Below, one piece after another: positions 7,342 through 18,692 of a stretch of DNA of 29,292 nt. This stretch comes from a virus. The stretch spans positions 1 through 29,292 of IMG/VR virus record IMGVR_UViG_3300032246_002678, one strand, 5' to 3'. The position numbers and the translations under genes are program-made. Positions within the stretch are counted from its first letter, which is position 1, and every line of letters begins with the position of its first letter. Below the pieces are notes generated by a model. The model made no database searches and was not told the origin of the DNA. It saw nothing but the letters and a program-made list of their open reading frames with translations.

Positions 7342-10204
7342 AAGTACCTATGGTGGTAATGGTAAAAAAGTCATTATCGTTAATATTTAGCGTAGAATTT
7401 GAACTAACTGCTACACTGATGTTAATGTTTCCTGTGGTTGCCTGATATCTAAAGCTATTAACATTTAAATAGTCTAAAGCATAGGCATCGTCATTGACCG
7501 TAGTCTGATAATTCTGCACGACTCTGAGCATCACACTGGTTTCGGGCCCAGGACCATACACTGTTATGCTGGTGGTGTTAAACTGACGACTGGCCGGCAG
7601 TTTATAGAATCCCGTAGTGCCAGTGATCTTATAGTAATTGCTGTCTGTAAATGTGGTAGAAATTATGGGAGCTATGGTCATGTTGGTATCATTGGTTATG
7701 CTGGTTATGACATAGGCTGTGGTGGTGCTGGTATTGGCTAAACTAAAGTATTCACCCACTCTGAAACTGGTGGCAAAGGTTGTACCTGTACCTGAAACTT
7801 CGGTTCCGTTGATGCCACCGCTGATAACACCGTTGCTGCTTATCAAACCTCGGAATGAAGCTGTAAAGTTTGGTGTTACTGTCAGTACATTGTTGTTGGC
7901 AATGGTGGTAACTGTATAGGCAGTCACGTTTAAACTGCTGTCTATGGTGATCCTGTCACCAACATTGACTACAGTACTGAACAATGTACCAAATCCAGTC
8001 ACAGTATTGCTGCCAGGTTCAGCATAAACCTTACCAGACAGACTGGTGGTTCCATAGGTCCACAGATTGCTGGTTGAACCTTCCCAGAGTTTGGCTGCGG
8101 TAAAGTAACTGCTGCCACCGTTGAGACTGAACTGTATTTCTAGATCATCGCCGCTGTCAGGAATTTCTCCGCCATTGTAGTTGTCGCCTACCAGATAGCT
8201 CAGAGTAGCATCCAGTCGAGAACAACGTATAAAACTGGTGGTGGTTACAAAACGGCTCTGACTGGTGCCACTAAATGGACCATTAAACACAAAACAGTTA
8301 CTGCTAAATGCGAATACTGTGTTGCTGGTGTTGCCACCAAAGGAATTGATGGCCACACTGGTGCTTAAACTGCTCCAGCTGGCTACCAGACCAGTTGATG
8401 TAATGTTGGTGGTGGTAAATGTTTCACTCAGGCTGGTGTTGAGCTGAGTTGGCTGATCAATTTCAAACCGTATGGCACAACGATCATAGCTCTGACCGCG
8501 TTCCCAGTTATAGGGTCTGAATATAATGCGGCTACTGCTGGTGGTTACAGTGTAACTGCTGTTAGGAACATCTGACACCAGGTTGCTGACAACACTGTTG
8601 CTGCTGTGAAAATATACCAATTTATTGTAATCCAGACTATCACCTAGAGCAATGCGTTTAAGATTGCGGTTGGTAACGTCATCAAAATACGGTATCACAG
8701 TAACATTGCTGCTGAAACTTATGACCACGGCATTGTTGCTTTCACCGGCTGCATTATTGCCCTGTGAATTTTTAACCCAGGTGATGAGCAGTATCATGCT
8801 GCCCACACTGGTAGAATTTTGTAATGCAGTACTATAGGCTAAGGTCTGTGTAGTAAAACTGGTCAATGGACTTCCAGCTGTTAGGTTGCTACTGCCAGTA
8901 ACGTATCTGGTGACTACTATGCTGGTGTTTACGTCTCGGGGATAGGCAATAATTTGCGGATCCAGTCCTACAGCTCGGCTCAGTTTATCAAAACTAGGAC
9001 CGTCTATGCGGGTAGCCTCAGTTGTAACACCATAAGTAATATAATCATTGAGATTCTGCAGAGCCCAGGTTACGTTTTCACCTGGATAGTCATAGGTTGC
9101 ACTGCGGGTAATTGATCCTATGCTGGTATAGGTAATGGTGGTAAAACCAGTTGTAGTGGCCACCTTGGTGGTGCTGGTGCCGGTCTGTTCATCTCCGGTT
9201 CGATCAAAGGTAAATGTTGGACTGGTCAAATAGGTCTTGATGCTGGGGATGCGCACCGTGGTTTCGGTTCTGTTGTTTATGCAGATGGCTGTAGTGTTGC
9301 TGGTAGAAAAATCTGCCAGGGTATCACTAAGATATTCATTGAACAGTCTGGTGCCGGTTGGATGCAACTGACTTAATACATGATCATACCAGGATTGTCG
9401 TTCGGTATGGCTTCGTATCACATAACTGTATTGCTGATAGTACAGGCTGTCCTGCAGTACCTGATCAGTGCTGAGCTGACTGACATCATCTAGAAATTTA
9501 CCTGGCGCAGCTATGACACTGCTAACTGCTACAGAAGTAATATAGCTGGAAGTCCCAGCAAAATTATTATAAAATCCAACTATGGTTTCACCTGTGGTAA
9601 AAGTTCCAACCCAACTACCTGGTTGCAGCACCAGATCATAATAGTTGGCACCGCCGGCGCCTACCACCTGTATGACATTATCTACAATAGCATAGGCTTT
9701 ACTGGTAACTCCACTAACTTGGGTATGGATTAGGTTAACTGGATTACCACTTACGGAACTTATGCGTATGGTTTTTTCCGAATACCAGTTACTGGCGCTG
9801 GGTTTGAACAGATAATCTCGGGGATAACTGATTTCAATTTCATCGTTAAAGAACGCTCGGAAAAATAACCTAAAGCTTTTTTCTGAACCTTTTAATCGAT
9901 AAAACTGCTGAGCATATTTGACAAAAGTAGCTGTATTGCTGGAAGTTTGATCTGGTAAAAATGGAGCATAGGTATGCAGAAATTCACGCTCTAAACTTGC
10001 AGCAGTAGTGTCAATATCACGATTTAACTGCAGGTTTTGTAAACTATACTGAGTGCCCACACTGGTGGCATTGGTATCGCCAGCAGTTTCTAACCAGTTA
10101 AAATATTTGGTTACAAATACTACAAATAACGGATAGAATTCCTGAACATAGTCCGGAATCTGATCTGTTAGCAGATGCGTTATTTTTTGGGTACTGTCAG
10201 TCAT
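7340..10204 (-). CDS. gp7: Baseplate wedge gp7-like protein with jelly-roll adhesion module
   Basis: 954 residues (T4 gp7 is about 1032). The N-terminal ~300 residues carry conserved marine T4-like landmarks: YVQEFYPLFVVFVTKYFNWL at 19-38, the FYRLKGSEKSFRLFFRAFFN segment at 101-120, SYPRDYLF at 126-133, and FLDDVSQLS...QDSLYYQQYSYVIR at 237-264. From about 590 the protein is Ser/Thr-rich beta structure. Residues 660-720 and 870-915 together resemble a Reelin-type jelly roll (DSGDDLEIQFSLNGG and a terminal NDDAYALDYLNV), split by two tandem repeats at about 724-860. The call gp7 rests mainly on gene order gp25-gp6-this-gp8, identical to T4 6-7-8, plus length and the conserved N-terminus; direct similarity to T4 gp7 cannot be judged by eye. 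It overlaps gp6 by one base. Confidence 0.68.
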   Translation of the reverse strand: MTDSTQKITHLLTDQIPDYVQEFYPLFVVFVTKYFNWLETAGDTNATSVGTQYSLQNLQLNRDIDTTAASLEREFLHTYAPFLPDQTSSNTATFVKYAQQFYRLKGSEKSFRLFFRAFFNDEIEISYPRDYLFKPSASNWYSEKTIRISSVSGNPVNLIHTQVSGVTSKAYAIVDNVIQVVGAGGANYYDLVLQPGSWVGTFTTGETIVGFYNNFAGTSSYITSVAVSSVIAAPGKFLDDVSQLSTDQVLQDSLYYQQYSYVIRSHTERQSWYDHVLSQLHPTGTRLFNEYLSDTLADFSTSNTTAICINNRTETTVRIPSIKTYLTSPTFTFDRTGDEQTGTSTTKVATTTGFTTITYTSIGSITRSATYDYPGENVTWALQNLNDYITYGVTTEATRIDGPSFDKLSRAVGLDPQIIAYPRDVNTSIVVTRYVTGSSNLTAGSPLTSFTTQTLAYSTALQNSTSVGSMILLITWVKNSQGNNAAGESNNAVVISFSSNVTVIPYFDDVTNRNLKRIALGDSLDYNKLVYFHSSNSVVSNLVSDVPNSSYTVTTSSSRIIFRPYNWERGQSYDRCAIRFEIDQPTQLNTSLSETFTTTNITSTGLVASWSSLSTSVAINSFGGNTSNTVFAFSSNCFVFNGPFSGTSQSRFVTTTSFIRCSRLDATLSYLVGDNYNGGEIPDSGDDLEIQFSLNGGSSYFTAAKLWEGSTSNLWTYGTTSLSGKVYAEPGSNTVTGFGTLFSTVVNVGDRITIDSSLNVTAYTVTTIANNNVLTVTPNFTASFRGLISSNGVISGGINGTEVSGTGTTFATSFRVGEYFSLANTSTTTAYVITSITNDTNMTIAPIISTTFTDSNYYKITGTTGFYKLPASRQFNTTSITVYGPGPETSVMLRVVQNYQTTVNDDAYALDYLNVNSFRYQATTGNINISVAVSSNSTLNINDNDFFTITTIGT
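7625..8035 (-). repeat. Two tandem GTxF/VGD repeats inside the gp7-like protein
   Basis: Residues about 724-790 and 793-860 share the pattern VxGxGTxFxTxxxVGxxxxxxxxxxxTAYxxTxIxNxxxxTxxP. Copy 1 contains TVTGFGTLFSTVVNVGD; copy 2 contains EVSGTGTTFATSFRVGE. This is a common small beta repeat of phage surface proteins. The pair interrupts a flanking domain. Confidence 0.65.
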
Positions 10205-12063
10205 TAATTATTTGCCGCTTCCACTTCGATGGTTATGCCATTGTTTACATTGGCTGATACTACTGCTGCTGTATCGTCCTGAACTAAAATTTCGTTGAAT
10301 GCTGGATAAATATCACCAACACTTTCCTGTGGATTAGCATACACATACAATTGAGATATACCACTTGGATACCCACTAATTGTCAGTGGTGATGTTGAGC
10401 TAAGTGTGATCAGACCCTTGCCATAGTCAATGGTTCCTGGACTATCTAAAATTTCACCAGTGTTTAGATCATAGGTGTATAGGGTGCCAGTTCCTTCATA
10501 GTCCGGTGGACTTTCATCTGGTATGTCCTTGATGCTGCAAAAATGCACCCCGGCTGCATCAGTAAAATAAAAATAACTGGTGGTGAGTTCAGCTGGATGA
10601 ACTTTGATGGGTAACTGTATGGTGCTGCCAAAACTTAATCTGACATTGGGCACCAGAGGTAATCGTTTGGACAGTTTATACAGTACATTTACACTTAGTA
10701 TAGCATCATCTACATTCATGAGCTGTTCTTCTAGCTGGCTGCGATAGAAATTTGATTTAAAACTTGTTAGATTGGTCTGCATGAACTCTGCAACCTTGGC
10801 ATTGATCAGACTCTTGATCTGATCACTGGATCTGGTTGTGCGGGTATCTGTGTATCTTACCTTAATGTTAAAGCTTACATAGGTATAGGTTGGATCCACA
10901 AACTCATGCTGAGATGTCATCATGCTGCGGGGTTTTAGTAATTCATTAACAATGCGAGTTTTTTCACTGGTGGTCAGCACATACCCGGTTTTAGGTTTGA
11001 TGCTGATAAAGGTCTTACCGTATTCTGGAGGATCATTGTTTTCTCCACCCCAGACATTTACGCTGTCTGCACCTGGAACGTTGTCTGAAATATAAGTAGC
11101 ATAATCCGTAGTTGTAATCACACGGCCCTGGCTGGCATAGTTATTCAATGATCTGTATCTAACCTGTTCTGTGGTTTCTTTTTCACTACCGCCTGCGGGT
11201 TTACTAATAGAAGTAATAGTTCTGTTAGCACTGTTTTCACCGGCTATGCTATTGGTGCTCCAGCCTACACTGACATTGGTGCTGACATTGGCGTCGGCTC
11301 CGTCGGTTATGAGATAACTAATCTTGATTACATCTCCCTGACTTAGGTTGGCACCCAGTACATCATCACCAAAATTAATTTCATAAAAACCTCGGGTATT
11401 TTCCTGCAGGTAAAATACCTTGGCAGTCTGATTAACAGCACTTAGATCAGTTACTAGATTGTAAGGTTCCGAATAAGAACCAACTCCACCATACTGAATC
11501 TGCACCTGCAGGGTGCTGGTGTCAATGTCTGTGTTAGGAATTTCATATTTTACGTCAGGGCCTGGATTAGCCGACACAGTCCAGTAATAGTCCTGTTTAC
11601 GACCCTGATAAAGTTTAACACTGCTAAATGTATAAACACCTGCAACTGGTGTAGCTGAAAATGAATCAATGGTGTAAAAATTATAGCTGGTGCCATCTAT
11701 GCTGGTAGTAAAAACCGTATAGGGATTAAGTGTAATAAAATTAGGTACTGTGGTGGTGTTCTGTATGATAACATTCACAACAGCCGTGGCTGCTCTGCGA
11801 CTGCGAGGTACATAGCTGATCTGCTTGGCCAGGCTGACTACTGAACTGCGTTTGATAGCTGTGTCCAGGAACATTTCATTACTGACCATGTTGGCCAGCA
11901 CTGCGTTATAATGTGTATTATAGGCCAGGAGATCTATTAGCACACTGAGGTTAGATGCATCAAAGTCATAGTCTGTAAACTGACTCTGATTGCGTAAATA
12001 GGTTTTTAGATTAGACTTAATGTCTTCAAAATCTAATTCGGTTACTCGTACATTATTGGCCAT
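10204..12063 (-). CDS. gp6: Baseplate wedge subunit gp6 (baseplate J family)
   Basis: 619 residues, close to T4 gp6 (about 660). The N-terminus NVRVTELDFEDIKSNLKTYL, the 'FDASNLSVLIDLLAYNTHYN' segment at about 34-53 and MFLDTAIKR are the typical start of gp6/baseplate_J proteins. Downstream, DYATYISDNVPGADSVNVWG and the RTTRSSDQIKSLINAKVAEF region match the wedge-ring core. gp6 dimers form the inner ring that holds the wedges together through gp53, gp25 and gp7. It overlaps both neighbours by one base (gp25 upstream, gp7-like downstream), suggesting translational coupling. Confidence 0.93.
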   Translation of the reverse strand: MANNVRVTELDFEDIKSNLKTYLRNQSQFTDYDFDASNLSVLIDLLAYNTHYNAVLANMVSNEMFLDTAIKRSSVVSLAKQISYVPRSRRAATAVVNVIIQNTTTVPNFITLNPYTVFTTSIDGTSYNFYTIDSFSATPVAGVYTFSSVKLYQGRKQDYYWTVSANPGPDVKYEIPNTDIDTSTLQVQIQYGGVGSYSEPYNLVTDLSAVNQTAKVFYLQENTRGFYEINFGDDVLGANLSQGDVIKISYLITDGADANVSTNVSVGWSTNSIAGENSANRTITSISKPAGGSEKETTEQVRYRSLNNYASQGRVITTTDYATYISDNVPGADSVNVWGGENNDPPEYGKTFISIKPKTGYVLTTSEKTRIVNELLKPRSMMTSQHEFVDPTYTYVSFNIKVRYTDTRTTRSSDQIKSLINAKVAEFMQTNLTSFKSNFYRSQLEEQLMNVDDAILSVNVLYKLSKRLPLVPNVRLSFGSTIQLPIKVHPAELTTSYFYFTDAAGVHFCSIKDIPDESPPDYEGTGTLYTYDLNTGEILDSPGTIDYGKGLITLSSTSPLTISGYPSGISQLYVYANPQESVGDIYPAFNEILVQDDTAAVVSANVNNGITIEVEAANN

Positions 12064-12452
12064 TATCGTACTCGGGTAAATTTAGTTGTAAAAAGTTGTG
12101 GTTCTTTGCTGTTTTTTAAACGATATTCTATGTTGATATAAACATCATTGTCTTCAGCAGATGTCAGAGTCACCTGTATGAGCTGCAATCTGGGTTCAAA
12201 TTTTGTTATGGCATCCTCTATGACTCGTTCAGCAATCATCAACGTCATGGGATCCATGTTTTCAAATAATAAATTTGATATCTGACAGCCTAGGTCAGGC
12301 TGAAATGGGCGCTCATAGTGTTTGGTATAGATTAAATTACGCAGAGCATTTCGCACGGCATTATCGTCAGTTTTAGTGGCTACATCCCGAGTTCGGGGAT
12401 TGTATCCAAACGCTGCGTCTAGGTCTATGAATTGTCGGGTTGCTCTGGCCAT
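12063..12452 (-). CDS. gp25: Baseplate wedge subunit gp25 (GPW/gp25 family)
   Basis: 129 residues, the usual family length (T4 gp25 is 132). It carries AVRNALRNLIYTKHYERPFQ, PDLGCQISNLLFE and the diagnostic EPR motif in KFEPRLQLI. gp25 joins the wedge core bundle with gp6 and gp53 and resembles TssE of type VI secretion. It is followed with a one-base overlap by gp6, its direct structural partner. A GATAAATA sequence lies only 4 bases before its ATG, too close for a normal leader. Confidence 0.95.
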   Translation of the reverse strand: MARATRQFIDLDAAFGYNPRTRDVATKTDDNAVRNALRNLIYTKHYERPFQPDLGCQISNLLFENMDPMTLMIAERVIEDAITKFEPRLQLIQVTLTSAEDNDVYINIEYRLKNSKEPQLFTTKFTRVR

Positions 12453-12774: not shown

Positions 12775-13833
12775 CTAGTAATAAATGACTACCAATCCTA
12801 GTCCACCATAGCCGGCTTCTTCACCGCCCAGAGCAAACTGTATGGTCTGGCTACTGCTCATGCTCAGATCTGGATCTCCGGCATTGCCTGGAACTCGTCC
12901 ATTTCCTGACTGAGTTACAGCCATGATCAGTGCCGGATGCACATAACCGCTGCCACCACCGCCACCGCCCATGCTTGAACCTCCATAAGCACCACTGCCT
13001 CCGCCATAGTAACCACCACCGCCTCCACCACCATAGCAGTTGGCGTTCTGATGAGTGCCACCCTGACCTAGGCTACCAGCACCGCCTGCTGTTTGATTAC
13101 CTGCACCAGCAGAACCTCCGGCTGTTTGTGATCCACCTCCGCCATGTTGGTTTCCAAAACTACCATTATTAGCTGCACCATTTAGCGAATAACTGGTTAT
13201 ACTACCGGCATGTCCGGTCAGACCGCCGCCGGCTCCGCCTGAATTTACAGCATATCCAGTAACAGCTCCCCCACCACCTCCACCACCGGCCCAGAGACAA
13301 AAACTTGCTGATATAGATGGAACTTGAATGCTGGAACTGCCACCAGCAGACGCTGCATATTGATTGTCTCCTCCACTTAGGCTGGCGCCGCCGCCGTCAG
13401 GAAATGCCTTAGTATTACTTGGTTGTGGTCCACCACCAGCTCCAGGTCTAATGGTTATGGTTTCACCTGGGACTACTGGAACTATGGCATGGCTGTATCC
13501 ACCAGCTCCGCCCAGACTGCCCTGACGCCACCCACCATAGCTGCCACCGCCACCACCGGCTCCCCACATTTTTACCAGTATGGATGTTACAGTTGCAGGT
13601 ATGACCAGGGTGCTGGTTGTACCATTGCCATAGGTTACCTTGGTAGGTGTAGCTCCGCGTGGGGTAGACAGGGGTAAAAGATAATTGCTGTGATTCTGTA
13701 TGAGCCAACCTGATCGGGTCAGTACACCAGTTGAAAAATTTGTTGTATAGGTTTCCAGAAACGTAAAGTTCTGATCCAGTTTGGTCACTGATACTGAACT
13801 AAATTCATTGGCAAATATATTGGGCAAACTCAT
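12775..13833 (-). CDS. Polyglycine-rich tail adhesin
   Basis: 352 residues. Residues 1-60 are an ordinary N-terminal attachment region (MSLPNIFANEFSSVSVTKLD, with a KLDQNFTFLE motif common in phage fibre tips). Residues about 64-90 are a beta strand segment ending VKMWGAGGGGG. Residues about 90-300 are dominated by Gly runs separated by short variable loops (SYGGWRQGS, AVTGYAVNS, NCYGGGGGGGYYGGG). The C-terminus ends with hydrophobic GLGLVVIYY. This matches the glycine-rich 'VxxWGAGGGGG' domain family. T4-like adhesins of the Salmonella phage S16 gp38 type use polyglycine-II sandwiches with variable loops for receptor binding; by analogy this is a host-range determinant. It overlaps the lectin gene by four bases (ATGA) and is followed by a chaperone-like gene. 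Confidence 0.7.
   Translation of the reverse strand: MSLPNIFANEFSSVSVTKLDQNFTFLETYTTNFSTGVLTRSGWLIQNHSNYLLPLSTPRGATPTKVTYGNGTTSTLVIPATVTSILVKMWGAGGGGGSYGGWRQGSLGGAGGYSHAIVPVVPGETITIRPGAGGGPQPSNTKAFPDGGGASLSGGDNQYAASAGGSSSIQVPSISASFCLWAGGGGGGGAVTGYAVNSGGAGGGLTGHAGSITSYSLNGAANNGSFGNQHGGGGSQTAGGSAGAGNQTAGGAGSLGQGGTHQNANCYGGGGGGGYYGGGSGAYGGSSMGGGGGGSGYVHPALIMAVTQSGNGRVPGNAGDPDLSMSSSQTIQFALGGEEAGYGGLGLVVIYY
12934..13572 (-). repeat. Glycine-run region of the adhesin
   Basis: At least six runs of four or more Gly codons occur in residues 88-300, with Asn, Ser, Tyr and Gln loops between them. On the plus strand the region reads as repeated (g/a)cc(a/g)cc-type triplets, so spurious reverse frames rich in His and Pro appear there. 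Confidence 0.7.
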
Positions 13834-14531
13834 AAAGTATTTTTCCAGGTAATTGCTGAACCACTGTTGGTCCAGACTAGGGTGCTTGTTGACTCAGATC
13901 TAGTTGTTGTTGATGTAGCTATAGCCGTAGCTTGAACATATAATTGTTTAGCAGTTCCAATGCAAGGGTCACCAAATACTTCATTGGTGGCTGGTATGGT
14001 TATGGTTCCACTTCGTCCCAGCACATAATTCTTAACTATACTAAGGCTATTTGAAGCATGACACCCTCCAATGGCAAATGATCCACATGTACCAGTTGGA
14101 GTACCATAGCTGGCAAATTCTACGCTGGTAAACGTACTACCAGGTGGAGCTGTTAGAGATACTGAGCTACTTTCAACAGCAGTTCCGCAGATCTGATACA
14201 CACTACCACTACTACTAACACTACTACTATTTATCCAGGTCACAGGCCAGTCTACTGCGCTCCACTTGGGTGGAAATGCCGAATAGGTTATGCTGGTTTG
14301 GTTCAGTGGTATAACACTAATAGTACTAGTTGCAAAATTTGCCATGCCACCCAGAGGTATGGTTAAACTAGTATCTGCATATAAACTAAAACTGCGAAGT
14401 GATAAAACTTTAACATAGTAATTATGACCATTTATGCCCATGCCAGTATTACTTATTCTGACCAGGGTGCCAGTGCTTAATCCATGATTAATGCTGGTGG
14501 TAATTACCGAATTAAATATTTTCGTAATCAT
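13830..14531 (-). CDS. Tail protein with SUEL / rhamnose-binding-type lectin domain
   Basis: 233 residues. Residues 1-75 hold a small beta module (TTSINHGLSTGTLVRISN) typical of phage surface proteins. Residues about 114-202 match a SUEL/Gal_Lectin (PF02140-type) domain: opening ICG (C115), FASYGTPTGTCGSF (139-152, C149), GGCHASNSLSIV (155-166, C157), and the terminal FGDPCIGTAKQLYV (186-199, C190). FASYGTPxGTCGxF, CHAxNS and FGDPC are hallmarks of the plant beta-galactosidase subtype of this domain. The tail after 203 is Ser/Thr-rich. Role inferred: carbohydrate binding during adsorption. It sits between the PAAR spike tip and the polyglycine adhesin, overlapping each by a few bases. The domain call rests on motif recognition by eye. 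Confidence 0.75.
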   Translation of the reverse strand: MITKIFNSVITTSINHGLSTGTLVRISNTGMGINGHNYYVKVLSLRSFSLYADTSLTIPLGGMANFATSTISVIPLNQTSITYSAFPPKWSAVDWPVTWINSSSVSSSGSVYQICGTAVESSSVSLTAPPGSTFTSVEFASYGTPTGTCGSFAIGGCHASNSLSIVKNYVLGRSGTITIPATNEVFGDPCIGTAKQLYVQATAIATSTTTRSESTSTLVWTNSGSAITWKNTL

Positions 14532-14962
14532 TAGAAACCAAAATCAAAATCAAAGAATTCTGATAATCCTCCGGTAATGACATCTTCTAGATAATCCTGC
14601 ACATAATCTTCGGCAAAGCCTAAAGCACCATCTATTAAACTACCTGCACCACTACGACCACCGCCACGACTCTGACTGCCTATGCTTACATTAGGACTAC
14701 CCATGGCAATTAAACTACCACAACTGATGCTGTCACCTATGCGAGCTGCTGGTCTGCCATTGATAAACACCGTGGCACTGCCACTGGCAACTTCACCTGG
14801 ATGACATCCATCTAATGGACAACAGTGCACATTCCAGGGATCTTTAAGTTTATGAGCTGCTATGCCATTGATATAAACATTAGGGCTACCACTGACTCCA
14901 GTGCGAGGAGGCCAGCATCCATGCCCTGTGCAATAATCTCCTAGTCTAGCTGCGGCTGGCAT
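14531..14962 (-). CDS. PAAR-repeat spike-tip protein
   Basis: 143 residues. The N-terminal ~100 residues carry the PAAR pattern: PAAARLGDYCTGHGCWPP, then SPNVYINGIAAHKL, HCCPLDGCHPGEVASGS, TVFINGRPAARIGD and MGSPNVSIG. His and Cys residues (C11, H14, C16 and the HCC/CH cluster) are candidates for the tip metal site. PAAR proteins sharpen the central spike of contractile tails and type VI secretion systems by capping the gp5/VgrG beta-helix. Residues about 105-143 form an acidic, aromatic C-terminal extension ending DFDFGF that is not part of PAAR and could carry another tip component. It lies two genes downstream of gp5, as expected. Confidence 0.92.
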   Translation of the reverse strand: MPAAARLGDYCTGHGCWPPRTGVSGSPNVYINGIAAHKLKDPWNVHCCPLDGCHPGEVASGSATVFINGRPAARIGDSISCGSLIAMGSPNVSIGSQSRGGGRSGAGSLIDGALGFAEDYVQDYLEDVITGGLSEFFDFDFGF

Positions 14963-14964
14963 GA

Positions 14965-15486
14965 TTAGGTAGGCAAGTCACTGATGGACTGATTAAAATA
15001 AAGGGTGTTGCTAGTAACACTATCAAACTCTCCTCGGCGTATGAACCCATTGATGAATCTGTTGCGTTCGTAGTTCCAATCATTGTACACAGTCTGAGTC
15101 ATGTTTATGGTGCCATTGTTGGTGACTATGATGATGTTCACACTGGTGGTGGTGTTTAGATCTGGTCTAAATTTTACAGCCTTGTAATAATTAGCCGGCA
15201 GGCTGGCATAACTGGTCACAGAGCTTAATGTAGTTGTATAAGCACTGGTTCTGAACTGAAAATACTGATCTATGAAACAATCTGTATAATAACCACTTAT
15301 GGTCAGGGTGCTGCCTGTAATTGCTACACTTAAAGTACTGGTGTTGGCCACCCTGATGCTGTAACTGCTCAGCACACAGGCAATGCTGGTCAATAACAGT
15401 GCATCCTGATACAGGGTATGTGTACTGGTAAATGTTCGATACACATAGGTGCTGACCGGATTGGGTGCTAGTGCATAAACTGCCAT
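14965..15486 (-). CDS. Unknown tail protein between gp5 and PAAR
   Basis: 173 residues, not recognised as a named family. It is Thr/Ser/Tyr-rich and mostly beta by composition, with TISGYYTDCFIDQYFQF in the middle and a basic C-terminal segment YNDWNYERNRFINGFIRRGE. No signal peptide or membrane segment is seen. It overlaps the gp5 stop by one base and precedes the PAAR gene by two bases, so it is made together with the spike. A spike-associated or hub-decorating role is inference from position only. Confidence 0.7.
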   Translation of the reverse strand: MAVYALAPNPVSTYVYRTFTSTHTLYQDALLLTSIACVLSSYSIRVANTSTLSVAITGSTLTISGYYTDCFIDQYFQFRTSAYTTTLSSVTSYASLPANYYKAVKFRPDLNTTTSVNIIIVTNNGTINMTQTVYNDWNYERNRFINGFIRRGEFDSVTSNTLYFNQSISDLPT

Positions 15487-18400
15487 TATGAATTCAGATC
15501 CGCTAGGTAATTAGCTACTACCTGTCCATTCATGCAGGTTACTACTTTATCATAGTAATCAACTGATCGATTGCTGATGGCATTATAGCTGATACCAATC
15601 CAGGGTTCCTGACTACCAAAGGTAGTATATTCTAATCTTAGCTGATCATAGGGAACATTATTTTTAATCCACTGAGCTATGCTATAGTAATCACTTACAC
15701 TGGCTCCGGTAAAATGCAGGTTTACAGCCTGACCGGCCTGATAAGGGGTAAGAGTGTCTATCTGTGCCTGCACAACATCTGCATCAATAGCATTTAACTG
15801 TATGGTTTCTATGAGATCTTTGTAGGCATTATTTTCATCCAGACTGGCCAGGTAACTATTTGATGGTTTAAATCCATCACTGATTACCACATTAGGATAC
15901 TGTTCACGTATGGCATCCAGAGTGTTAGCTGCCAGGGACTTCAGGTTGCTGATGATATCATAGCGAGTCAGATCTCCCTGATCCTGAATCTCAAATTGTG
16001 CATTGGTATCTAATACTCTGGAACTTAGATCACCCAGAGTATAGTATTTGCTTAGTTGTGCAGCAGCAGGATAGTCTGTCCAGTTGGCAAATTCAGTTGC
16101 ATCAACTACAGCACCCAGAACCTGAGCTGGTAGGGCAGTATCTATGTTGGCTACTCCATTTTTATAAAAATCAACTATGAGAGCCTCACCAGCTGCTAAA
16201 GCTGTTTGATCTATGAGAGTTGAACTCTTAAGAGCATTCAGTATGCTCAGTTGAGCTGGACTAACCGATCTGCTGATTAAACTGTTAAGATCCAGACCAG
16301 CATTGGCTACTAGTTTTTCTGCGCTGGGCAACCCATATTCAGTCAACACTGAATTTAATCCACCTAGTCCATTGGTGTCTATGTAACTGTTTAAATTACC
16401 CAGCCCGCCCACGGCATCCAGAGCTGTACTAAATCCAGTTATGGCATCGCGTATGGCTGGGTTAGCTGCTGCATTGCCTATGATGTCTGTGAAGCTTTCA
16501 CTAATGCCAGCTGAACTTAATACGGAATTTAGGCCATCTATGCCACCAATTTTTAATAAACTACCTATGCCGCCGCCACCTAGTCCGCCCAGTGTAGATT
16601 GTAATGCGCCTGATCCCAGTAGATTTCCAGCCTGACTAAACCCAGCTACTGCATTGGCTATGGCCGGATTGCTTAGAGCATTGCCTAACAATCCCAATCC
16701 CCCACCAGAAAATCCACCTAGTAATCCACTGAATCCTTTACCATAACTGTTGCCTGGATTAGCTATGTCAGTTGGCAGAGGATTTAATCCTGTGGCTGCA
16801 AATCCCTGAGCAGTTACATTGCCCAGATCGCCATTGCCTAACGCAGTAGTTGTAGCAGTATATGGATTAGCTGTGCCTGAATTTAAATTTATATCCTGGG
16901 CATCCATGTCAATGCTGCCAGTTACTCTATGTTGTTCATCGCCCGTGACTCTAAAGTTTAGGTCGCCAGCTACCTTATGATTTTCATAATTGCCCGCAGT
17001 TATGTTGATGTCCTGTTGTGCTTCCATGTAGATGTTCTGAGCTTTAATGCGCAGGTCTTTGCTGACATTGATGTCGGCATCGTCTTTGAGATTGATGGTG
17101 GTCTTGCCAACTACTTCCACATCTAAAGTGTTTTTAACTAATAATGTTTTGGCACCATCTACGGTAACGTCATAATTACCCTGGGTATATACTCGATTAT
17201 TGCGAGCAAAGATGTTGTAGTTTTCACCTTTGACTTTATAGCTGACTGAACCTTCTCGATCAATTTCAACATAGGTTCCGGTTCTATGATAGATGTGTAT
17301 GCGTTCGGCATTAGGTGTATCATCAAACTCTACTACATGGCCGCTTTCGGTTTCCCTAACATGATTATATGGATACTTGGCAGCAAAAGCACTGGGTGGT
17401 TCACTCCAGCTACCATCGGCATCGTTGGCCGTGGCTACATCACCAATGCGAGTGCTGTCTTTTTCGGGTTTGGGAGTAGCTTTTAGATCGTCATTGTTGG
17501 TGGCTAATTTGTTGGTATCCTGTCTCTGCGTATACGGACAGGTTGGATATACACCATTGGGATCTGCATAGGCATCTGGCTGACCCAGTTTTGGATTATT
17601 TAAAGCTCCAAAAGCAGTTTTTATTAGTTGCAGACCAGAATTTAATGATGCAGTAGTTGAATTGCGATTGGCAGCAGCCACGGGTTTGGTTCCAGCTCCA
17701 CCTATGCTTTGTGAACCCAGTGCATAATAATCACTGGCTCGGGTTCCCAGAATGTCTGCAGGATCCTTGCCCAATCGTAATTGATTGGCACCGCCGGCTC
17801 CGGCTATGTGTGCAGCTGCCAGATAACCAGCGGTTTCATAATTGTTGCCAGTACTGGCATCTACAGCACCTAGATTTTTTAACTGATTGTAGTTAAAATT
17901 AATGTTCTCAAACATAACAGTTTCCTGAACATTATTTCTGTTAGCAAGAAACTCGTCTAGATTATTTACATCACCTTTGCCGGTCCAGTTTCGGCTGTCA
18001 TTTAATAAAACATTATTAACTTTAGCATTAGGACCCAGTACTGGTTTTAGGTAACCATTGGTGATCAATGCTGCAGCACCAAACTGATATTTGCCAACAT
18101 AGCCCTGACTATTTACGGTGCTGTAATTCTGAACACCTCCGGCTATGCTACTGCTTTCTCTATAGGCAATATCATCCATAAGCTTTTGAATTTCGGCCTG
18201 AGTCAGTGGAGGCAGGGTGGATGTTATGCTGTTACTTACAGTTGATTCAGGGCTGGCATCGGATGGTAACACAGGCTGAGAATTACCATTGCTATCATAG
18301 ATAATGTTTCCTGCGGTGTCACGCTGAGCGTTGGCACTGTTGTCTGAATTACTTTGTTGATTACCACAGGCTACTGACGGTTCAGGAATACCACCCATGG

Positions 18401-18692
18401 TTCCCATCATGATGGGCTGCTGACAATCTTTGCCATCAGCAAAGAATCCTATGACCCAGGTTCCTTCCAACGGACCCAGAGGTGTCTGTCCTTTGCCAGA
18501 ATTAGCTGCGCTGGTAATAGGTTGCATGGGCATGGCCCAGGGTAAGTCATAGGTGGGTAATTCAAATTTGTTATCTATGTGATAACCCATGATTCGAACT
18601 CGGCATCGACCTAGTTTAAGAGGGTCTTTTCGATCCTCTACTACACCAACCCACCAATAAAACCCGTCTCGGGCAAATAAATTGTCTATCAT
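15486..18692 (-). CDS. gp5: Baseplate hub spike gp5 with lysozyme-like and degenerate M15-like domains
   Basis: 1068 residues, almost twice T4 gp5 (575). Domains in order: OB-fold at about 1-105 (WWVGVVEDRKDPLKLGRCRV, then WVIGFFADG and MMGTMGG); a transglycosylase/lysozyme-like domain at about 161-330 with YRESSS (candidate catalytic Glu179) and GYVGKYQFG, unlike the T4-lysozyme fold domain of T4 gp5; a trimeric beta-helix needle at about 448-608 (SGHVVEFDDTP, then repeated DVTVDG/DINV/DINITAG strands); a Gly/Leu-rich region at 640-790 with an internal duplication; and a C-terminal M15-peptidase-like domain at about 908-1046 whose zinc-ligand positions are Tyr984, Asn991 and Gly1033. gp5 binds gp27 and pierces the envelope while locally cutting peptidoglycan. 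The gp27-like gene ends two bases upstream. Confidence 0.92.
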   Translation of the reverse strand: MIDNLFARDGFYWWVGVVEDRKDPLKLGRCRVRIMGYHIDNKFELPTYDLPWAMPMQPITSAANSGKGQTPLGPLEGTWVIGFFADGKDCQQPIMMGTMGGIPEPSVACGNQQSNSDNSANAQRDTAGNIIYDSNGNSQPVLPSDASPESTVSNSITSTLPPLTQAEIQKLMDDIAYRESSSIAGGVQNYSTVNSQGYVGKYQFGAAALITNGYLKPVLGPNAKVNNVLLNDSRNWTGKGDVNNLDEFLANRNNVQETVMFENINFNYNQLKNLGAVDASTGNNYETAGYLAAAHIAGAGGANQLRLGKDPADILGTRASDYYALGSQSIGGAGTKPVAAANRNSTTASLNSGLQLIKTAFGALNNPKLGQPDAYADPNGVYPTCPYTQRQDTNKLATNNDDLKATPKPEKDSTRIGDVATANDADGSWSEPPSAFAAKYPYNHVRETESGHVVEFDDTPNAERIHIYHRTGTYVEIDREGSVSYKVKGENYNIFARNNRVYTQGNYDVTVDGAKTLLVKNTLDVEVVGKTTINLKDDADINVSKDLRIKAQNIYMEAQQDINITAGNYENHKVAGDLNFRVTGDEQHRVTGSIDMDAQDINLNSGTANPYTATTTALGNGDLGNVTAQGFAATGLNPLPTDIANPGNSYGKGFSGLLGGFSGGGLGLLGNALSNPAIANAVAGFSQAGNLLGSGALQSTLGGLGGGGIGSLLKIGGIDGLNSVLSSAGISESFTDIIGNAAANPAIRDAITGFSTALDAVGGLGNLNSYIDTNGLGGLNSVLTEYGLPSAEKLVANAGLDLNSLISRSVSPAQLSILNALKSSTLIDQTALAAGEALIVDFYKNGVANIDTALPAQVLGAVVDATEFANWTDYPAAAQLSKYYTLGDLSSRVLDTNAQFEIQDQGDLTRYDIISNLKSLAANTLDAIREQYPNVVISDGFKPSNSYLASLDENNAYKDLIETIQLNAIDADVVQAQIDTLTPYQAGQAVNLHFTGASVSDYYSIAQWIKNNVPYDQLRLEYTTFGSQEPWIGISYNAISNRSVDYYDKVVTCMNGQVVANYLADLNS
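15555..15971 (-). other. Degenerate M15 peptidase-like domain of gp5
   Basis: Residues about 908-1046. The family pattern SxHxxGxAxD appears as TPYQAGQAVN (982-991); the usual WIHIS appears as WIGIS (1031-1035); the intervening WIKNNVPYDQLRLEY (1008-1022) matches the helix-strand of phage D-Ala-D-Ala-type endopeptidases. The two His and one Asp zinc ligands are therefore Tyr, Gly and Asn, so peptidase activity is not expected. A peptidoglycan-binding role would be an inference. Confidence 0.65.
16323..16670 (-). repeat. Internal duplication in the gp5 Gly-rich region
   Basis: NPAIANAVAGFSQAGNLLG (675-693) is repeated as NPAIRDAITGFSTALDAVG (744-762), and GLNSVLSSAG (720-729) as GLNSVLTEYG (778-787). 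The two units follow each other in the same order, 58-69 residues apart. Confidence 0.7.
17703..18212 (-). other. Lysozyme/transglycosylase-like domain of gp5
   Basis: Residues about 161-330. The AYRESSS motif supplies candidate catalytic Glu179, followed by VNSQGYVGKYQFG (193-205) and AGYLAAAHIAGAGGANQLRLG (288-308, location only). This arrangement (ES, then GxYQFG, then AAHxAG) fits a soluble lytic transglycosylase-like fold rather than the GH24 T4 lysozyme inserted at the same place in T4 gp5. Confidence 0.65.

Follow-up and report, generated by a model that had tools for sequence, protein, structure and literature searches.

A SUEL/rhamnose-binding-type lectin domain as a likely exchangeable receptor-binding tip in the baseplate gene cluster of a T4-type phage

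We asked whether a gene in the tail gene cluster of an uncultivated phage encodes a SUEL/rhamnose-binding-type lectin domain and, if so, what such a domain could do there. The class of sugar is known for few phage receptor-binding modules, most of them from cultivated phages, whereas the SUEL lectin fold is well understood, both in its sugar chemistry and in the residues whose change knocks out binding. The window, by which we mean the whole stretch of DNA analysed, is an IMG/VR record of 29,292 bases from a T4-type phage. Profile matches identify gp32, gp59, gp6, gp8, gp25, a gp5-like hub and T4 baseplate proteins among its genes. The nearest relatives of its gp6 are found in Methylophilales and Pelagibacter phages (about 35%), those of its gp32 in cyanophages (about 56%).

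The gene in question (13830-14531, on the minus strand, like the other genes of the window given with coordinates below) has an ATG start and encodes a 233 aa protein, which consists of an N-terminal phage domain, the SUEL lectin domain and a short C-terminal tail. The open reading frame has an 84% identical homologue in the closest relative of the window, L002. The Pfam profile PF02140 (SUEL_Lectin) matches aa 128-201 of the protein with 45.8 bits (E 8e-12), which is above its gathering cut-off of 31.4 bits. Moreover, a phmmer search of the PDB with the window protein recovers the sea-urchin lectin SUL-I (2.7e-27) and RemA of Flavobacterium (1.5e-21). The AlphaFold model of aa 111-205 (13917-14201) has a pLDDT of 97-98, shows the SUEL alpha/beta fold and superposes on eleven solved SUEL entries with Z scores of 11.2-14.9. 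Among these are the SUEL domain of rice beta-galactosidase (5iaz, Z 14.9), SUL-I (5h4s, Z 13.0) and CSL3 (2zx0, Z 12.2), with an rmsd of 1.7-2.1 over 83-98 aligned residues. Thus, as judged by profile and predicted structure, the phage protein contains a genuine SUEL/rhamnose-binding-type lectin domain; the profile, PDB sequence and fold matches together rule out a chance match. An earlier note on this DNA had recognized the domain from three peptides, and all of them are present in the order it described, FASYGTPTGTCGSF at aa 139-152, CHASNS at aa 157-162 and FGDPCIGTAKQLYV at aa 186-199. Its assignment therefore withstands both the profile and the structure comparison, with the small correction that the span it gave (13926-14192, aa 114-202) is slightly narrower than the modelled domain. 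Neither NCBIfam nor PHROGs has a family that covers the protein.

The gene is flanked by the gene of a PAAR spike-tip protein (143 aa, 14531-14962; PF05488, E 1.6e-24) and by that of a glycine-rich protein (352 aa, 12775-13833; PF12810, ALK_LTK_GRD, E 1e-13). Close by are the genes of the baseplate wedge proteins gp25 (12063-12452; PF04965, E 5.1e-18) and gp6 (10204-12063; PHROG 219, E 3.2e-149). The SUEL gene thus lies inside a T4-type baseplate gene cluster, in keeping with the claim of the earlier note that the domain belongs to a phage tail protein. Beyond the PAAR gene follow the genes of a 173 aa protein (14965-15486) and of the gp5-like baseplate hub protein (1068 aa, 15486-18692; PF06714, Gp5_OB, E 4.6e-17). 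The start of the SUEL gene overlaps the PAAR stop codon (TAATGA), and its stop codon overlaps the start of the glycine-rich gene (tATGAg), so that translation of the three genes is probably coupled.

The N-terminal domain of the SUEL protein (aa 1-87, 14271-14531) is matched by PF16190 (E1_FCCH) only below the cut-off (E 0.014), and its model is poor (pLDDT 52). Repeated FCCH-like units (HG....V.....LN...YYVK...) that resemble this domain occur in two large phage proteins (L171:2329-6165 and L173:1-4323). In three related phages (L036, L037 and L043), the gene following PAAR opens with the same N-terminal domain, with 45-54% identity over ~80 residues, and then continues into a glycine-rich domain without any SUEL domain. 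In four others (L035, L038, L039 and L041), the slot is empty, with no gene separating PAAR from gp25. A conserved N-terminal part joined to an exchanged C-terminal binding part is what is expected of a tail receptor-binding protein. T4-type gp38 adhesins and other glycine-rich tail adhesins are comparable in that glycine-rich domains take this slot, on this N-terminal domain, in the related phages; one of these domains, that of L036, has a weak GP38 match (PF05268, E 2.3e-4, 21.5 bits, below the cut-off of 25). Their fold, however, is unrelated to SUEL, which in the window replaces the glycine-rich domain. From this comparison of gene order and sequence, the accessory slot that follows PAAR and precedes gp25 most likely accepts several alternative tips, of which the lectin is one, and a single genomic slot thus displays the exchange of an adhesin for a lectin.

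The 352 aa glycine-rich protein of the window is a probable second adhesin. The 173 aa gene after the hub gene, in turn, probably marks a second adhesin slot, as relatives of the first ~155 aa of its product (L035:5556-6674, L037:462-1820 and L043:3675-5084) all carry added C-terminal modules. These modules are glycine-rich in L037 and L043, and of a different kind, without a Pfam match, in L035.

The comparison between the window and L002 shows where the SUEL protein diverges. The other proteins of the cluster, tube cap through gp25, show 93-99.8% identity, whereas the SUEL domain reaches only 75%. At the nucleotide level, identity is 0.74-0.82 in the SUEL core and mostly 0.88-0.98 on both sides of it, and third codon positions differ at 36 of 94 sites in the SUEL part, compared to 9 of 101 in the N-terminal part (p 1e-6). 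Both linkers have changed in length, and so has the C-terminal tail (aa 206-233 plus stop, 13830-13916; low pLDDT), in which the terminal WTNSGSAITWKNTL is nevertheless kept. Since the excess divergence is largely synonymous (dN/dS 0.19), recombinational exchange of the domain accounts for it better than rapid selection at single positions. Synonymous divergence from L002 varies widely across the entire window, and recombination is therefore not special to the SUEL gene. The replacement of the tip in relatives and the jump in divergence over the SUEL domain together fit a swappable receptor-binding module.

We then consider the sugar site. In CSL3, the sugar is contacted by Glu7, Tyr27, Asn74, Asp79, Gly83 and Lys86 (PMC3269628), and in alignments all six have equivalents in the window domain, namely E120, Y142, N183, D188, G192 and K195. 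They lie in the stretch from E120 to K195 (13947-14174; residue roles according to PMC3269628 and PMC2430599). Substitution of the residues that correspond to E120 or K195 in latrophilin-1 eliminated binding or severely weakened it (PMC2430599). All six residues are kept in 58 of 66 distinct viral domains and in each of the 37 distinct domains from bacterial genomes; the conservation of Y142, N183 and D188 is partly built in because they lie inside the peptide search patterns, while E120, G192 and K195 lie outside them. Given the SUEL domain, the baseplate cluster setting and the intact contact residues, binding of a host sugar, as the earlier note proposed, is the best reading of what the domain would do.

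Animal SUEL members typically have eight cysteines, which form four disulfides. The window domain has four of them, C115, C149, C157 and C190. Its membership stands despite this reduced set, because the disulfide bonds vary within the family (PMC3269628). By alignment, C157 and C190 match the Cys83-Cys115 bridge of latrophilin, which ties two binding loops together (PMC2430599). The other two cysteines occur jointly: 39 domains have both C115 (codon at 14187) and C149 (codon at 14085), 62 have neither, two have C149 alone and none has C115 alone. This co-occurrence suggests that the two may form a second bridge, with its first cysteine shifted upstream by a few residues; it would be a relocated disulfide that is absent in animal members. 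The earlier note had proposed that the missing disulfides suit a protein folded in the cytoplasm. We reject such an adaptation, since exported proteins of Bacteroidota share the same cysteine set, with C115 and C149 occurring together in 27 of 37 distinct bacterial domains. Having fewer cysteines is thus characteristic of the bacterial and phage branch.

The phage domain can be compared with three groups of known SUEL proteins. With the animal egg lectins (SUL-I, 5h4s; CSL3, 2zx0) it shares the family, the fold, the six CSL3 contacts, the DPCxGTxK motif and one of four disulfide pairs, the equivalent of C157-C190. However, the egg lectins are secreted tandem repeats, whereas the phage has one domain within a phage protein, with YGT in place of the YGR motif; of the four standard disulfides, two lack their cysteines and a third pair is apparently relocated. 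Among cellular sequences, the nearest relatives belong to large proteins exported by Bacteroidota, of the same type as the surface adhesin RemA. The Flavobacterium johnsoniae RemA (8gl6) is 54% identical to the window over the domain and has the same cysteine set, and the identity to SUEL domains of Flavipsychrobacter reaches 69%. These proteins, which are exported to the bacterial surface and serve the bacterium itself, are long (1436 aa in RemA, about 800 to more than 2700 aa in the others), in contrast to the phage protein of 233 aa with its phage N-terminal domain. Finally, only few phage proteins in UniProt are named after SUEL. Two of these, A0A6J5PD65 and A0A6J5NGG5 from uncultured Caudovirales, carry SUEL in their database names; they are about 650 aa long and have a SUEL domain that is 36-38% identical in structural alignment. 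Our literature search found no paper on what they do or where in the virion they are located.

Together, the family and fold of the domain, its intact sugar site, the place of the gene in the baseplate cluster, the replacement of the tip in relatives and the concentration of divergence in this tip, all shown by computation, lead us to infer a protein of the virion that would bind sugar and act in adsorption. We consider it likely that the gene encodes a tail-associated receptor-binding protein, in which the N-terminal domain provides docking and the lectin domain, as an interchangeable tip, binds sugar. The N-terminal domain would dock the protein at the tail tip, near the spike or baseplate; as this domain lacks a confident model, we infer its docking site from gene order. 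The SUEL domain would bind a non-reducing sugar on the host surface with the hydroxyl pattern common to L-rhamnose and D-galactose, and thereby establish a reversible first contact with the host. A single SUEL domain binds weakly, as the affinities in PMC2430599 indicate, and useful binding would thus need several copies to be engaged, before other tail parts perform commitment and injection. The predicted receptor sugar, terminal L-rhamnose or D-galactose, is directly testable on one purified domain.

SUEL domains can also act as protein-protein contacts. Latrophilin SUEL domains bind teneurin and FLRT proteins in solved complexes (6ska and 6ske for teneurin), and the best structural match of the window domain, the SUEL domain of rice beta-galactosidase, is without several of the contact residues. 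The phage domain could accordingly be a protein-binding or structural baseplate module that has lost sugar binding. Such a purely structural role would not require conservation of the sugar site, yet the six contacts are all kept in the window and in the great majority of viral domains, including the pattern-independent Glu, Gly and Lys, and we regard this explanation as unlikely. Only a little less probable still is that the protein does bind sugar but serves as a decoration, which would anchor free phage to slime, biofilm or the polysaccharide of other organisms rather than to a host receptor. The decoration of phages by carbohydrate-binding domains is known in general, and the kinship with RemA-type surface adhesins would suit it. 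On the other hand, the SUEL gene adjoins the spike-tip gene and is near the baseplate wedge genes, not among capsid genes, and its slot-mates are glycine-rich adhesin-like domains. That the gene is a non-virion accessory (moron) gene, whose product acts in the infected cell, appears very improbable to us. A slot that varies, and that several relatives leave empty, might be expected of a moron, but the gene overlaps the PAAR and glycine-rich genes at its start and stop, no signal peptide is seen at the N-terminus of its product, the type of N-terminal domain recurs in large phage virion proteins, and in other phages SUEL genes adjoin tail genes. We therefore retain the tail receptor-binding protein as the preferred reading.

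The earlier note had also suggested a survey for further cases in phages, and this was productive: SUEL domains are encoded at at least 119 IMG/VR loci, of which 80 were kept. Some are of a tail type. A 114 aa SUEL gene follows the gene of a 2639 aa tail fibre in L005, a 437 aa SUEL protein is encoded shortly after a short tail fibre gene on the 156-kb contig L079, and in L083 a SUEL gene follows the tail sheath gene. Moreover, L003 combines SUEL with a LamG-type domain and L071 has two SUEL domains in one protein. In 50,697 deposited phage records, five tblastn queries detected no SUEL domain; one match in a terminase (E 0.2) is weak and was taken as chance. We also found no paper on SUEL domains in phages in the literature searched. 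What is new is thus the known lectin fold as an exchangeable tail module, while the fold family and SUEL names of phage proteins were already known.

In a tree of 68 domains, the neighbours of the window are L002, L003 and Flavipsychrobacter, although the 88 alignment columns resolve little and do not settle this fork. Within this limit, a single origin of SUEL in phages is disfavoured, since two or more label changes are required on starred branches, and eight in the best tree. In our estimate it is as likely as not that tail receptor-binding modules of the SUEL type are widespread in uncultivated phages but have been overlooked, that phages obtained them from surface adhesins of Bacteroidota on more than one occasion, and that they move in and out of the adhesin slots of the tail. 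The finding also connects animal egg lectins, bacterial gliding adhesins and phage tails.

A second and larger class of phage SUEL proteins is of a secreted type (L008-L029, L074, L080, L088-L092 and L096-L126). These proteins are long and Pro/Thr-rich, appear to have a signal sequence, may contain FN3-like stretches and in many cases carry a hydrophobic segment at the C-terminus. In bacterial genomes, 36 SUEL loci were found, nearly all of them in Bacteroidota and encoding long exported proteins where inspected. Among the few matches outside Bacteroidota is a Myxococcales protein from a MAG (L159:2471-4270), which ends in a SUEL domain.
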